A stretch of 35,789 nucleotides of DNA from positions 1 through 35,789 of IMG/VR virus record IMGVR_UViG_3300004151_000021; one strand, 5' to 3'. The translations under genes were made by a program, and so were the position numbers. The notes beneath the pieces were generated by a model. That model saw only the letters and a program-made list of their open reading frames with translations, was not told the DNA's origin and searched no databases. Source of the DNA: a virus. Shown here piece after piece: positions 18,266 through 25,380 of this stretch. Every line of letters begins with the position of its first letter. The first letter of the stretch is position 1.

Positions 18266-19825
18266 ATGGTGCAGAGCTCCTTGAATGATGTTGGTTTTCT
18301 TGATCGCGTAATCTGCGCGATTGCGCCTAAAATCGGCCATGAGCGGCTTTGTTATCGTGAACTTAACCAAAGGTATATTGAACGTTCTTCGACGCGATCT
18401 TATGACATCGCACGGCGCGGACGGAGTACGCAAGGCTGGCGCGCAGCTGGAACGTCAGCGACAGCAGAGATCGCCGGCGCGCTATCGCTTTCACGTTCAC
18501 GGGCCCGCGATCTTGTGCGTAACAACCCTTATGCAACCAGTGCGCTCAATAAGCTTCAAGCTAAGATTGTAGGCACCGGCATTAATCCACGAATCGAGCG
18601 TATGGCTGGCGGCAAGAAGATTCCAGACCAAACGCGTCACGATATTATGTCGGATTGGGCTTCGTTCTCTGAAAATTGCACAGCCGATGGTCTAACGGAT
18701 TTTAGTGGTCTTCAGTCACTTGTCGCCCGGACTGTTCCGGAAAGCGGCGAGGCTTTGGTTCTTTATGAGCCGCGTCCGACGTCATTTGGTCTGCGCATTC
18801 CTCTACAAATGCGCATTTTAGAGCCTGACTATTTAGACGACACTAAAAACGCCATTTTGGACAATGGCGGCGTGATTGTCGCTGGGGTTGAGTTTGATCG
18901 CTATTTGCGCCGGGTTGCCTATTGGCTCTTTGATGATCATCCTGGCGAATATTTTATATCGCGTCGTGGATCGTTGCAAAGCAGGCGCATTTCAGCGGAG
19001 TGGGTTGATCCGGTCTTCAATATGCTTCGCCCCGGCCAAGTGCGAGGCATGACGTGGTTTGCGCCTGTCGCGCTTAAGCTTCATGATATTGGTGATTATG
19101 AGGAAGCTGAACTTGTCCGCAAGAAAATAGAAGCCTGTCATGTCGGTTTCATCACGCGCCAAACGGGTGCTGCAAGCCAAACACAAGAAGGGCTTAAACG
19201 TGATGAATCTGGTCGCGTTATTGAAACAATGTCACCCGGTATTCTTCTGCGTGGTGCGCCGGGTGAGGACGTTAAGTTCAATAATCCGTCTGGAACGACC
19301 GGCGCAACGGAATATTTGACGCAACAGCTTCACGCGATCTCAGCTGGTCTGGGTCTTCCTTACTTCATGATGAGCAGTGATGTCAGTGCGACAAATTACA
19401 GTTCGGCGCGAGCTGCGATGTTGGATTTCTGGGATTTTCTGGATCATTGGCAATACAACATGATGGTACCGATGATGTGTCGCAAGGCGTGGCAGCGCTT
19501 TGCTCGTTATCGCACGGCGGGCCTCGGCAAAAGCATCGATCCAACTTTAAACATTGTCTGGACTCCACCCACGCGGCCCTTTGTTGATCCCGTCAAAGAT
19601 GCGGAAGCAGCGAAAGCACAAGTGCGTAGCGGCTTTAAAACATGGCGCCAAGTTGTCTCCGAAACAGGTTATGACCCCGATGATATTTTGGATGAATGTG
19701 AGGATACAAATCAGAGGTTTGATGAAAAAGGCTTGATCCTCGATTGCGATCCGCGCCGCGTTCAAGCCAGCGGTAAAAACCAAGATAAATCGAAAGAGGA
19801 AGGTGCTGCCGATGCCGAAAAATAA
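18266..19825 (+). CDS. portal protein, lambda gpB family
   Basis: A 519-aa portal subunit (a dodecameric ring in the family) that anchors terminase and later gpW. Recognisable parts are NPYATSALNKLQAKIVGTGI near the N-terminus, PESGEALVLYEPRP, RPGQVRGMTWFAPVALKLHD, LLRGAPGEDVKF and ISAGLGLPYFMMSSD in order, all typical of the gpB family. A frame extension to TTG at 18242 would overlap gpW; the ATG at 18266 is preferred. The C-terminus overlaps the start of the protease-capsid gene by 14 nt. Confidence 0.94.
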   Translation: MVQSSLNDVGFLDRVICAIAPKIGHERLCYRELNQRYIERSSTRSYDIARRGRSTQGWRAAGTSATAEIAGALSLSRSRARDLVRNNPYATSALNKLQAKIVGTGINPRIERMAGGKKIPDQTRHDIMSDWASFSENCTADGLTDFSGLQSLVARTVPESGEALVLYEPRPTSFGLRIPLQMRILEPDYLDDTKNAILDNGGVIVAGVEFDRYLRRVAYWLFDDHPGEYFISRRGSLQSRRISAEWVDPVFNMLRPGQVRGMTWFAPVALKLHDIGDYEEAELVRKKIEACHVGFITRQTGAASQTQEGLKRDESGRVIETMSPGILLRGAPGEDVKFNNPSGTTGATEYLTQQLHAISAGLGLPYFMMSSDVSATNYSSARAAMLDFWDFLDHWQYNMMVPMMCRKAWQRFARYRTAGLGKSIDPTLNIVWTPPTRPFVDPVKDAEAAKAQVRSGFKTWRQVVSETGYDPDDILDECEDTNQRFDEKGLILDCDPRRVQASGKNQDKSKEEGAADAEK

Positions 19826-21812
19826 GCAAGTTAATCCAAAGGACATGGTCTTTCATAGAGAGGCAAGTTTCAAACCAGCGTCAGTTGATAAGGATTCCAG
19901 AACAGTTGTCTTGTGTTGGGGAAGCGAAGTTCCGGTTGAGCGATATGATTATGAACTAGAAAGATGGTTCCTCGAGGTTTTAAGCATGGAGCCTTCTGCA
20001 GTTGATTTATCCCGTTTGTCAAGTGGAAAAGCGCCGCTACTTGTCACACACCAATCAAGAAATCTGGATGCACAAGTTGGTGTTATCGATAAGGCTTGGG
20101 TACAAGAAAAAAGTGGTTTCTCACTCGTTAGATTTTCAAAACGCTCAACAGTTGAAGATCTTTTTCAGGATGTTTCAGACGGTATTATTCAGAATGTTAG
20201 CGTTGGCTATGTAGTTTCTCAATACGAAATTATGGAGAGGTCAGGAGAGATTCCAATTTATACGGCTGTAAGGTGGCAACCGTTTGAAAATTCCCTTGTT
20301 CCTGTTCCAGCAGATCCATCCGCGAGTACGCGCAGCGCGGAAGATGGCTTTGAGGAAATCTGCGCTGATACTTTATTAACCAGGGCCGTCGCCCAAACTG
20401 AGGAGAGCTTAATGCCTAAAGAAAATACTGGCGGCAGCCCCGCCGAAATCCAAGCGCCTGCGATCGACCAGCGTGCAATTGCTAGCGAAGCTACTGCGGC
20501 AGAGCGCGAACGTCAAAAACAGATTCGTCAGGCCGCGCGTGCGCTGTCTGTGGAAGAAGCTGTTGTCGATGAGATGATCGAAAAAGGCATTTCGTCCGAC
20601 GATGCGCGGACCCGTATGATTGATCTTCATGCGCGTGCAGCCGAAGCGCAGCGTATTGTGGCCCCGCCGACTATTAAGGGCTCAGAGCGGGCCTCTGGCG
20701 ATGATCCGTCTGTGATCGGTCAAGCCATGGCTGAAGCTATTGCAGCGCGGTATTCAAACCACGCGAAGCCATCCGATCATGCGCGTCAGTTTATGGGGCA
20801 TAGCGTTTCTGATTTGGTTTCTGACCTGTTGCGCGCAAACGGCTTTCGCCTAGATACGCGCAACAAGGCTGAATTGATCGGCAAAGCGATGTCATTCCGG
20901 GCTGCTGGTATGCATGGCACGAGCGATTTTGCCGGTGTTCTTTTGAATGCGGCAAATAAAATCCTTCTCTCCGAATACACCATGAAGCCTCAAAGCTATA
21001 CGAAGTTGTCGCGCAAGCGCAATTTTACTGACTTCAAGCCTCATAATTTTGTTCGTCTCGGTGATTTTCCTGATCTTTTGGAAGTTGGCGAAAGCGGCGA
21101 GTTCAAATATGGCCGTTTGCAAGATGGTAAGGAATCGATTGCGCTTGCCACCTATGGTCGTGTGATCGGTCTTTCGCGCCAATCGCTTATCAATGATGAT
21201 CTTGGTGCTTTTGCTGATATGACGAGTAAGATTGGTCGCCGTTGTGCGTCATTTGAAAACAGCCTATTTTATAAGCTGTTGACGTCAAATAGTGGCATGG
21301 GGCCAGAGCTTTCTGATGGTGTCACCATGTTTGACGATAAGCATGGGAACGTCGCTGAAACGGCGTCTGCTATCGATGTGGAACATGTTGCTTTAGGCCG
21401 GTCGGCTATTCGCCAGCAAAAAGGCCTTGCAGACCCCAAGGATAAAAAATCGAAGGGCATCGATTTGAACCTTGAGGCTAAATATATCGTTGTTGGGCCC
21501 AAGCGCGAACTTCAGGCGCTTCGTATTTGCACGCCGACAGTCGCCGTTGAAACGGGTGAGGTCAATCCTTATGCGCGTTCGCTTGAGGCAATTGTCGATG
21601 CATCTATCTCTGATTACGGATGGTACATGCTAACCGATCCGGGCGATGCTGAAGCCTTTGTCCACGGTTGGCTTGAAGGTCAGGAAGGTCCGCGCGTCGA
21701 AACTCGCAATGGTTTCGATACGGATGGTATCGAGTTCAAGGTCGCCGAAGACTTCGCTGTCGGCGGCGTGGATTTCCGCCCCGGTTACTTCAACGCTGGT
21801 GCTGCCGGTTAA
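19812..21812 (+). CDS. prohead protease-scaffold-major capsid fusion
   Basis: A 666-aa polyprotein. Residues 1-155 are a U35/HK97-type prohead protease, with the probable catalytic His80 in LLVTHQ and Ser130 in QNVSVGY. Residues about 200-390 are an acidic, helical scaffold-like segment. From about 395 (MKPQSYTKLSRKRNFTDF) comes an HK97-fold major capsid protein. The protease would cut the fusion during maturation. The ATG at 19812 is chosen because GGAAGG is about 8 nt upstream. A strong internal ribosome site precedes an in-frame ATG at residue 201. It follows the portal with a 14-nt overlap and ends at a terminator. Confidence 0.92.
   Translation: MPKNKQVNPKDMVFHREASFKPASVDKDSRTVVLCWGSEVPVERYDYELERWFLEVLSMEPSAVDLSRLSSGKAPLLVTHQSRNLDAQVGVIDKAWVQEKSGFSLVRFSKRSTVEDLFQDVSDGIIQNVSVGYVVSQYEIMERSGEIPIYTAVRWQPFENSLVPVPADPSASTRSAEDGFEEICADTLLTRAVAQTEESLMPKENTGGSPAEIQAPAIDQRAIASEATAAERERQKQIRQAARALSVEEAVVDEMIEKGISSDDARTRMIDLHARAAEAQRIVAPPTIKGSERASGDDPSVIGQAMAEAIAARYSNHAKPSDHARQFMGHSVSDLVSDLLRANGFRLDTRNKAELIGKAMSFRAAGMHGTSDFAGVLLNAANKILLSEYTMKPQSYTKLSRKRNFTDFKPHNFVRLGDFPDLLEVGESGEFKYGRLQDGKESIALATYGRVIGLSRQSLINDDLGAFADMTSKIGRRCASFENSLFYKLLTSNSGMGPELSDGVTMFDDKHGNVAETASAIDVEHVALGRSAIRQQKGLADPKDKKSKGIDLNLEAKYIVVGPKRELQALRICTPTVAVETGEVNPYARSLEAIVDASISDYGWYMLTDPGDAEAFVHGWLEGQEGPRVETRNGFDTDGIEFKVAEDFAVGGVDFRPGYFNAGAAG
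20412..21812 (+). CDS. nested in-frame start: scaffold plus capsid product without protease
   Basis: Inside the fusion gene, GAGGAG (20400-20405) lies six bases before an in-frame ATG at 20412 (MPKENTGGS). Initiation here would give 466 aa containing the scaffold-like segment and the capsid domain but no protease. Lambda uses a similar trick for Nu3 within gene C. The prediction would give many capsid copies per protease copy. Evidence is the ribosome site and its exact position at the domain boundary; expression is inferred. Confidence 0.6.
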   Translation: MPKENTGGSPAEIQAPAIDQRAIASEATAAERERQKQIRQAARALSVEEAVVDEMIEKGISSDDARTRMIDLHARAAEAQRIVAPPTIKGSERASGDDPSVIGQAMAEAIAARYSNHAKPSDHARQFMGHSVSDLVSDLLRANGFRLDTRNKAELIGKAMSFRAAGMHGTSDFAGVLLNAANKILLSEYTMKPQSYTKLSRKRNFTDFKPHNFVRLGDFPDLLEVGESGEFKYGRLQDGKESIALATYGRVIGLSRQSLINDDLGAFADMTSKIGRRCASFENSLFYKLLTSNSGMGPELSDGVTMFDDKHGNVAETASAIDVEHVALGRSAIRQQKGLADPKDKKSKGIDLNLEAKYIVVGPKRELQALRICTPTVAVETGEVNPYARSLEAIVDASISDYGWYMLTDPGDAEAFVHGWLEGQEGPRVETRNGFDTDGIEFKVAEDFAVGGVDFRPGYFNAGAAG

Positions 21813-23014: not shown

Positions 23015-23038
23015 TCAACACACAAAATGGAGGATATC

Positions 23039-23977
23039 ATGGCTCGCCAATATGGTTCGGGGGTGCAGCTTCTTGGCTCATTTGAGGATATTTACGGCAC
23101 AACGCCAAACGACAGCTTTATGAAGCTTCCCTTTGTCTCAGATAGCCTCGGTTCAGAGCAGGCGCTTGTTGAATCCGATATTCTAGGTCAGGGCCGTGAT
23201 CCAGCGGCCCCTTCGCGCGATGTCATCAAAGTTGAGGGAGATATTGTCGTTCCCGTTGATCTGCGGAACTTTGGGTATTGGCTTAAGGCGCTTTTGGGTG
23301 CGCCGGTGACGATTGGGGATACGCATTATACGCATTCCTTTTCGTCTGGCGCTTCTTCCTTGCCTAGCCTTTCGCTTGAGCTTGGTATGCCAAAGATTCC
23401 TGCTTATTTCATGACGGCAGGCGTTGTGATCAATTCGATGAACTTGAAGTTTGAGCGTTCAGGTTCCGCCTCGGCCACATTGGCCGCAATTGCGCAAGGG
23501 GAGGAACGATCTGCGGCAAGTCTCGGCGGCACGCCGAGCGAAGCTGTTTTAAAGCGGTTCAACCAGTTTCAGGGCTTTGTTAAAAAGGATGGGGCCCTTC
23601 TTGGCAATATCACAAGCGCTGAGTTGACCTATTCGAACAATGCCGAAAAGATCGAAACAATCCGTGATGATGGCAAGATCGATGGCGCAGACCCTACGAT
23701 TGCTTCTTTGACTGGTTCGATCGACATGCGGTTTGCCGATACAACGCTTCTCGATGACGCAACGAACGGCGATGCCGTTTCTTTATCATTTGGCTATAAA
23801 ATTGATGATGAGCAATCGTTGATTTTTGCTCTACCTGCCGTTTATTTGCCAAAGCCGAAACTTCCCGTATCTGGCCCAGGCGGTATCTCTGCCAGCTTCA
23901 GCTGGCAAGCGGCCAAGCCAACTTCAGGCACTATGCTCAGCGTCGTTTTGACAAACGACGTCGCGAGCTACGCCTAA
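23039..23977 (+). CDS. major tail tube protein
   Basis: A 312-aa tube protein. Recognisable features are MARQYGSGVQLLGSFEDIYG at the start, RDVIKVEGDIVVPVDLRNFG, LKALLGAPV, then SLSLELGMPKIP, with NSMNLKFERSGSASATLAAI in the middle and SLSFGYKIDDE near the end. The family replaces lambda gpV in alphaproteobacterial siphophages. GGAGG lies 5 nt before the ATG at 23039; an upstream ATG at 23027 is part of that ribosome site. It is followed by the chaperone pair as in lambda V-G-T. Confidence 0.88.
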   Translation: MARQYGSGVQLLGSFEDIYGTTPNDSFMKLPFVSDSLGSEQALVESDILGQGRDPAAPSRDVIKVEGDIVVPVDLRNFGYWLKALLGAPVTIGDTHYTHSFSSGASSLPSLSLELGMPKIPAYFMTAGVVINSMNLKFERSGSASATLAAIAQGEERSAASLGGTPSEAVLKRFNQFQGFVKKDGALLGNITSAELTYSNNAEKIETIRDDGKIDGADPTIASLTGSIDMRFADTTLLDDATNGDAVSLSFGYKIDDEQSLIFALPAVYLPKPKLPVSGPGGISASFSWQAAKPTSGTMLSVVLTNDVASYA

Positions 23978-24008: not shown

Positions 24009-24386
24009 ATGCTTCGTCTTGGCCTTAAAAAAGAACCCTATTGGCTTGATCTATTAAAGGGCGTTCGCATTCAGGTCCGCCCACTGACTACGCCGCTGGT
24101 TATGGCGGCACGCGTTGAAGCAGCGAAGGCTGTTGAAAAATGTGAATCTGAAAAAACCGCTGAAGATCAAAATGGCTCAAACGTCATTTTTGCAGAGCTT
24201 TTCATTAAAAAGATCGCGCAAGAAGCCATTATAGCATGGGAAGGCGTTGGTGATTCCGAAGGCCAAGAACTTCCCGTTACGCCAGAACACATTGAGGCGT
24301 TGATGAATCTTCATTATGTCTATGATGCTTTCGATATTCAGTATTATCGGAAGATTGAGCTTTTGGATCAGGAAAAAAACGCCTAA
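24009..24386 (+). CDS. tail assembly chaperone, G-like product
   Basis: A 125-aa acidic helical protein in the position of lambda G, between tube and tape measure. MLRLGLKKEPYWLDLLKGVRI starts a typical alphaproteobacterial tail chaperone, which coats the tape measure during tail assembly. The last codons GAA AAA AAC GCC TAA carry a perfect -1 slippery heptamer, so a share of ribosomes should extend it into the T-like segment. AGAGG is 8 nt before the ATG. Confidence 0.85.
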   Translation: MLRLGLKKEPYWLDLLKGVRIQVRPLTTPLVMAARVEAAKAVEKCESEKTAEDQNGSNVIFAELFIKKIAQEAIIAWEGVGDSEGQELPVTPEHIEALMNLHYVYDAFDIQYYRKIELLDQEKNA

Positions 24387-24742
24387 CGGCTCGTGTCGAA
24401 TGGCATTTCGGAGACGGGCCTAAATACTGCGGCGCGTGCGCCGATCAAGACCTGCCATGCGCACGCGGCCTTGCCAATGAGGAGGGCGAGAGGTGCCCTT
24501 ATTGTTCCAATGAACCACAGACCGTTGAGGGATGGCAGGCTTGGGACCTCATTTTACGATGCGGGAACCAGTTGAGAACGTCTAAGGGGTTTGTTGTTGG
24601 GATAGACATGGAACCGGCTTTGCATATGGCCGAAGCACTTGGTTATGACCTTATGGCCATGGCTGAACTTCTTGCCCCGTGTGAGCTTGGCGTGACGACG
24701 GCCCTGAACAAAAAAATCTTAGGTATGTTGGAGGGCGAGTAG
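24009..24742 (+). CDS. tail assembly chaperone, GT-like frameshift fusion
   Basis: Predicted 244-aa fusion: 124 G-like residues, then about 120 in the -1 frame. The T segment has no start codon of its own near its beginning, so frameshifting is its only obvious route. It contains a cysteine-rich patch (YCGACADQDLPCARG, then RCPYCSN), possibly zinc-binding, followed by GWQAWDLILRCGNQLR and MEPALHMAEALGYDL, which recur in second-ORF chaperones of related phages. In lambda, the GT form bridges tape measure and tube protein. The stop is 2 nt before the next gene. Confidence 0.8.
24374..24380 (+). other. -1 ribosomal frameshift site A AAA AAC
   Basis: Bases 24374-24380 form X XXY YYZ in the correct frame (codons AAA at 24375-24377 and AAC at 24378-24380), two codons before the G-like stop. 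After a -1 slip the next codon is CGC at 24380-24382 and the frame is open to TAG at 24740-24742. Any stimulatory RNA structure downstream was not worked out. Confidence 0.82.
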
Positions 24743-24744
24743 GC

Positions 24745-25380
24745 ATGATCCCACTCAAGATATTTGGAAGCGTCAAAAGTCTTTTGGATATCTCGTTTGA
24801 TGAGCTTGCCGAACAAAACAAACAAGCTGTCCGTGGCGCGGGAACGTTCCTTCTTGATCTGCTCCGCGCGCAAGTCCGCGCAGCTGGTCTTGGTAAGAGG
24901 CTGGAAAAAGCATGGCGCGTTAGATTTTATCCTGAGCGGGTCGAAACAATCCATCCAATGGCGTTTATCTATTCTAATGCTGTAAAGATACATGACGCTT
25001 ATAACAAGGGCGGGATAATTAAAACCAAAAACGGTGCGCGATATTTGGCCATACCGACTAAGAACGTGCCACGAAATTTCTCGTCTAAGCTTCCAATGGC
25101 ACCGGTTCAGGCTGAAGCCCAATTTAATTGTGATCTTGAGTTTATTGCGCACAAGGATGGACGGCCAGGCGGCGTTCTTGTCATGCCAAAGCTGATTGCT
25201 TCCTTAAACGGCAAGGGGTGGCGCAAAAATACAAAACGACGAGTCAAAAAGGGCCGCGACGTTGAGAACGTTGTGATGTTTTACCTTGTGCCTTCCGTTC
25301 AGCTTAAAAAAAAGCTGGATATCGAAGGGGCAATTAAGGCAGCGGAAAGCAATTTTTATAATCGCTTGCTGAGGGAATGA
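24745..25380 (+). CDS. phage tail protein, DUF6441-like
   Basis: A 211-aa basic protein between chaperones and tape measure. The sequence order (FLLDLLRAQVRAAGLGKRLEKAW, HPMAFIYSNAVKIHDAYNKGG, ARYLAIPTKNVPR, VVMFYLVPSVQLKKKLDIE) matches the DUF6441 group from alphaproteobacterial prophages, often annotated as minor tail. The exact role is unknown. Start codon two bases after the T-segment stop; stop one base before the tape-measure ATG. Confidence 0.78.
   Translation: MIPLKIFGSVKSLLDISFDELAEQNKQAVRGAGTFLLDLLRAQVRAAGLGKRLEKAWRVRFYPERVETIHPMAFIYSNAVKIHDAYNKGGIIKTKNGARYLAIPTKNVPRNFSSKLPMAPVQAEAQFNCDLEFIAHKDGRPGGVLVMPKLIASLNGKGWRKNTKRRVKKGRDVENVVMFYLVPSVQLKKKLDIEGAIKAAESNFYNRLLRE

Follow-up and report, generated by a model that had tools for sequence, protein, structure and literature searches.

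The window analysed here, the whole 35,789-nt stretch of virus record IMGVR_UViG_3300004151_000021, is a 35.8-kb virus contig that carries genes for an integrase, a ParB-like protein, a DnaB helicase, a gpA-type terminase, a lambda-family portal and a lambda-type tail module. Within the tail module the genes follow the order tube - G - T - DUF6441 gene - tape measure, so that the reading frames of interest, G and T, have tail-family matches on both flanks (Table 1). Further upstream, positions 19803-21812 are occupied by one 669-aa ORF, which matches the Peptidase_S78 prohead protease family at residues 62-181 and Phage_capsid_4 at residues 362-660, and which is spanned end to end by phrog_4523 ('major head and protease protein'); on the strength of these matches, we read it as a fused protease-capsid gene.

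Table 1. Features of the G/T locus and its flanks (positions in the window).
Feature	Position	Strand	Basis or remarks
Tail tube (major tail) protein gene, upstream of GT	23027..23977	+	PF18906 Phage_tube_2, E 4.3e-56
G, zero-frame tail assembly chaperone ORF, 125 aa	24009..24386	+	phrog_313, E 3.4e-16
Slippery heptamer A_AAA_AAC	24374..24380	+	sequence; all 176 legible relatives have an X_XXY_YYZ in this position
T, -1 extension, 120 codons plus stop, predicted to be read only within a GT fusion	24380..24742	+	open frame; conservation; AlphaFold
Zero-frame stop TAA, one sense codon (GCC) past the heptamer	24384..24386	+	same placement in 40/83 dereplicated relatives
RNA hairpin, a probable frameshift stimulator; 24388-24394 and 24414-24420 pair as its outer 7-bp stem	24388..24420	+	fold; synonymous test; covariation
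Four conserved Cys in the N-terminal half of T (T residues 17, 20, 27, 39)	24428..24496	+	invariant or nearly invariant columns in two alignments
DUF7697 (PF24752) match, T residues 70-113	24587..24718	+	E 1.2e-12; 48 bits against a cut-off of 27
DUF6441 gene, separating GT from the tape-measure gene	24745..25380	+	PF20039, E 8.2e-20
Tape measure protein gene, 854 aa	25382..27946	+	PF06791 TMP_2, E 4.8e-37

G opens with an ATG at 24009 and ends 125 codons later at its TAA, the 3' end of its frame reading CAG GAA AAA AAC GCC TAA, with seven A's in a row at 24373-24379 and the heptamer A_AAA_AAC in the G frame. After a slip of one base backwards, the first codon would lie at 24380 (CGC CTA ACG GCT CGT), and this frame stays open until a TAG at 24740-24742, 2 nt before the ATG of the next gene at 24745. 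The earliest ATG, GTG or TTG in the T frame is the TTG of codon 65 (24572-24574). As a gauge of chance, 20 main ORFs of the window with 7021 codons in all contain 42 in-frame X_XXY_YYZ motifs, of which only the one at 24374-24380 is A_AAA_AAC. The anatomy set out in the original prediction, with a heptamer in the correct frame near the G stop, a -1 frame open for 120 codons to within 2 nt of the next gene, and a T segment that has no start of its own near its beginning, was recovered in full. The placement of the site is the same in all 176 legible relatives (see below). Its description as 'textbook' needs a qualification: A_AAA_AAC is among the top heptamers on mammalian ribosomes, yet is weak on those of E. 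coli, where it is far less shifty than A_AAA_AAG (PMC5009743). When we looked upstream for a Shine-Dalgarno stimulator, anti-SD pairing was not above synonymous expectation (mean z -0.39; 20% below -1), and a search of Rfam placed no family at the slip site, the sole match being a sub-threshold IS009 elsewhere.

To assemble relatives of the locus, we used G or T protein stretches, but not the heptamer, as queries against viral contigs, phage records and a set of bacterial genomes with a single genome for each species. This yielded 179 loci including the window, 176 of which were legible at the site (two had masked N's within it, and one match was unanchored at the T start). The named genomes are mostly those of Alphaproteobacteria (Rhodospirillales, Magnetospirillum, Bartonella, Pseudovibrio and others) or Betaproteobacteria (Achromobacter, Cupriavidus, Limnohabitans), and the phage records contribute 11 Rhodobacter phages, 2 cyanophages and 2 phages from faecal samples. 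In every one of the 176 legible loci, an X_XXY_YYZ heptamer ends on the first base of T, and it takes the form AAAAAAC in 108, GGGAAAC in 64, AAAAAAA in 3 and AAAAAAG in 1. The G homologue occupies the expected frame at 174 of these loci, and at 172 the G match stops exactly at the heptamer. The T protein tree implies a minimum of 3 switches of the site between the A and G types when only supported branches are counted, and 6 when the best tree is taken as it stands; no half-way, non-slippery site was found among the sites of the legible relatives. As a separate observation, an early zero-frame stop is present at 39/52 A_AAA_AAC sites and 1/29 G_GGA_AAC sites, a contrast behind which there are few independent heptamer switches.

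Immediately 3' of the slip site lies a stem-loop, whose outer stem is separated from the heptamer by 7 nt in the register used throughout, which is inside the 5-9 nt range for 3' stem-loop stimulators. Such downstream structures have been called rare at sites of this kind (PMC3091744) or often present (PMC3483164). An RNA fold had been proposed for positions 24381-24460, but this 80-nt sequence of the window, taken alone, folds no better than its shuffles (z -0.02), and a 51-nt sequence of the window alone does fold into the stem-loop but is not significant under dinucleotide shuffling (z -0.96). Since neither single-sequence fold is significant, the case for the hairpin rests on the comparison of the family, for which we used as a null synonymous recodings that preserve the T protein and local codon usage. 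Measured in this way, the first 15 T codons of the 83 dereplicated relatives have a mean z of -2.81, with 82% at p<=0.05 (the sequence of the window itself: z -2.15), as against mean z values of -0.03 to -0.19, with 6-8% at p<=0.05, in five control stretches later in T. Because the signal is alike in sequences with a zero frame that is closed by then (z -2.83) and in those with one that continues (z -2.80), overlapping zero-frame code is not its cause. The same preference can be seen at single codons: the Ala at T codon 4 is encoded by GCC or GCT in 75/75 sequences, where GCG and GCA together supply 45% of Ala codons elsewhere in T, and the Gly at codon 13 by GGG in 67/83, compared with 19% elsewhere.

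Compensatory changes were counted in the fixed register (81 sequences without gaps), where 28 cells are altered on both sides with the pair kept, against 7.5 expected, a level reached in 0/500 shuffles; slid registers score below this one. We regard the synonymous test as the stronger of the two, because the shuffle control ignores relatedness. RNAalifold retains only 4 pairs over all 81 sequences, because some subfamilies (among them the Rhodobacter phages and relatives L075 and L052) shift the register of the stem. In the phage RcKemmy, for example, GCGCCCTTGC pairs with GCAAGGGCGC, and in relative L176 the stem is likewise in another register, with CGGGGTCCGC pairing with GCGGACCCCG; unconstrained folds of longer stretches often gain further outer pairs. 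Judged by these comparisons, the hairpin is under selection in the family and more stable than synonymous recodings allow, and it probably acts as a frameshift stimulator. In the literature we searched, a set outside which Xu 2004 falls, no earlier comparative proof of the hairpin was found.

Two relatives depart from this pattern, L179 with a weak hairpin and L081 with none (z +0.41). L081 (3492-3542) is also the sole relative with A_AAA_AAG, the heptamer that is strong in E. coli; as a single case, this combination of a strong heptamer and no stable hairpin matches what would be expected of a hairpin that makes up for the weakness of AAC sites.

At the protein level, G has a match to phrog_313, a family of tail assembly chaperones, and an AlphaFold model with a mean pLDDT of 80.9, and the 120-aa T is modelled as a compact, mostly helical domain with a mean pLDDT of 96.2. 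The N-terminal half of T bears the signature R......WHF.GG..YC..C, and its four conserved cysteines may form a metal site. Among relatives' T proteins, 40/42 match DUF7697, 36/42 match phrog_11212 and 10/42 match DUF1799, but Pfam DUF7697 and phrog_11212 reach only the last ~50 residues of T. Because the phrog_11212 profile starts at T residue 65, where the T frame of the window has its earliest potential start codon, both families look like stumps left by gene callers, and would appear to represent the C-terminal part of a frameshift-encoded T (24572-24742) called from internal starts. Along with the two cyanophage records in which T is listed as a separate, shortened gene, these stumps agree with the earlier expectation that T is easily lost in gene calling. 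Searches of PDB by sequence and by fold with G and T gave no match. A fold search of viral models (BFVD) with T as the query returned 'tape measure chaperone' entries from enterobacterial phages at a probability of at most 0.96 and E values of 0.06-0.6, a likeness between models that is suggestive only.

How could G and T come to be joined? One alternative is that RNA polymerase, rather than the ribosome, slips on the A7 run, generating mRNAs that have gained one A or lost two and thereby fuse G to T. The run at 24373-24379 is indeed long enough for some slippage of the polymerase, but 64 of the 176 legible relatives have GGGAAAC, in which the longest run is three bases, and polymerase slippage is therefore not a mechanism that the family can share; we reject it as the general one. 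A hairpin 7 nt downstream that is selected over its synonymous alternatives also fits a ribosome, and overall we consider the polymerase a very improbable source of the fusion. A seven-A homopolymer is also prone to sequencing or assembly error, and the frame break might be an indel in what is truly a single fused ORF. This is the least probable of the explanations that we weighed, and it is refuted by the relatives, every legible one of which has the same frame break in independent genomes, including those with GGGAAAC and hence no homopolymer.

It is also conceivable that T is a separate gene with a start of its own, coupled to the termination of G, as the position of the G stop just inside T and the separate, shortened T ORF annotated in some records would allow. 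We rate this as slightly less probable still than polymerase slippage, and reject it, as there is no ATG, GTG or TTG in the T frame before codon 65 and a start at that point would drop the most conserved half of the protein. What is more, 41/83 relatives lack a start upstream of T codon 22, a T-frame stop abuts the heptamer in 3, and a slippery heptamer would be pointless if T were translated separately.

Programmed -1 ribosomal frameshifting, by contrast, accounts for what is seen at the locus, and we conclude from the sequence comparisons that this is very probably a tail-chaperone gene of the lambda G/GT type expressed in this manner. That a tail chaperone segment lies hidden behind a -1 frameshift, as the original prediction held, is supported by the phrog_313 match, the tube and tape-measure genes on the flanks and the conservation of both the site and the T frame, as well as by close homologues in Rhodobacter phages that are annotated as joined 'tail assembly chaperone' CDSs. 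In the proposed mechanism, most ribosomes would translate G and terminate at 24384, and a minority, with tRNAs on AAA and AAC, would slip back by one base at A_AAA_AAC, aided by the hairpin 7 nt downstream, to enter T and produce a GT fusion of ~244 residues. The G:GT ratio of lambda is ~30:1; its G covers the tape measure protein, its GT attaches to the tube subunit through the T part, and neither stays in the finished tail (PMC5009743). By analogy, an abundant G would coat the tape measure protein here, a scarcer GT would recruit tail tube subunits, and both would depart before the tail is completed. These binding partners are inferred, as are the occurrence and frequency of the slip in vivo and the part that the hairpin plays in it.

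The likeness to lambda lies in gene order and frameshift anatomy, with GT between the tube and tape-measure genes, a -1 shift near the end of G, T in the -1 frame, and a downstream tail module with M, L, K, I and J-type genes. The two differ in the heptamer, which is G_GGA_AAG in lambda and A_AAA_AAC in the window, and, unlike lambda, the window has a selected downstream hairpin and a T that is separated from the tape-measure gene by a DUF6441 gene. The Rhodobacter phages RcKemmy and RcSwan and their relatives have a homologous G (28-31% identity) and T (40%), with the slip position and the place of the hairpin as in the window and the CDS already joined. However, this group uses G_GGA_AAC, its zero frame continues for ~90 nt past the slip, and T directly overlaps the tape-measure gene. 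Near known systems also include gp18/gp19 of Burkholderia phage KL1 (PMC3483164) and the haloviruses HCTV-1 and HCTV-2 (PMC5009743). KL1 shares with the window a stop right past the site, a single gene that separates GT from the tape-measure gene, and a stem-loop folded by mfold (PMC3483164), although the KL1 stem-loop comes from a single sequence without comparative support, whereas the hairpin described here is supported by the family. In phage P2, E/E+E' (T_TTT_TTG) likewise involves a -1 shift in a tail chaperone gene before the tape-measure gene, but a downstream structure was not found in P2 and its relatives (PMC3091744). The -1 signals of E. coli dnaX and of IS elements, like that of the window, pair a slippery heptamer with a downstream stem-loop; the window differs from these in having A_AAA_AAC in place of A_AAA_AAG, and in an upstream Shine-Dalgarno pairing that does not exceed the synonymous expectation.

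Work from 1993-2004 (Levin 1993 and Xu 2004, cited here through PMC5009743) made frameshifting between G and T known in long-tailed phages, and the Rhodobacter phage relatives are already annotated with it. What the sequences add to existing records is a comparative case, in which one T family combines an invariant slip position with AAC-type heptamers and a clearly selected hairpin. A hidden protein cut off by standard gene calling is thereby confirmed at the sequence level, and two families of 'unknown function', DUF7697 and PHROG 11212, can be given a putative name as the C-terminal stump of T. The 83 dereplicated sequences also offer a collection of natural variation in slip site and hairpin, with which the joint influence of heptamer, hairpin and zero-frame stop on the G:GT ratio can be tested directly in non-enteric bacteria, in which A_AAA_AAC stands in for A_AAA_AAG, the favourite of E. 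coli. It may be, although we lean slightly against it, that the T family has a signal of its own kind, made up of an AAC-type heptamer and a strongly selected hairpin, that RNA structure would set G:GT in this family, unlike in P2, and that T would need a metal bound by its four cysteines.

Two further observations concern the genes around GT. In 60/83 dereplicated relatives, a DUF6441 homologue precedes the tail tube gene, and the placement seen in the window is found in only 2/83 (the window counted), from which we take the DUF6441 gene to be transposed within an otherwise conserved tail module; an extra gene before the tape-measure gene is also present in HK97, SPP1 and KL1 (PMC3483164). 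In Synechococcus phage Sc-Yong805-1, the gene before G (L017:1219-2157; OP858991.1 8326-9264) is labelled 'site-specific tyrosine recombinase XerD' and occupies the place of the tail tube gene in relatives; the label is probably a misannotation.
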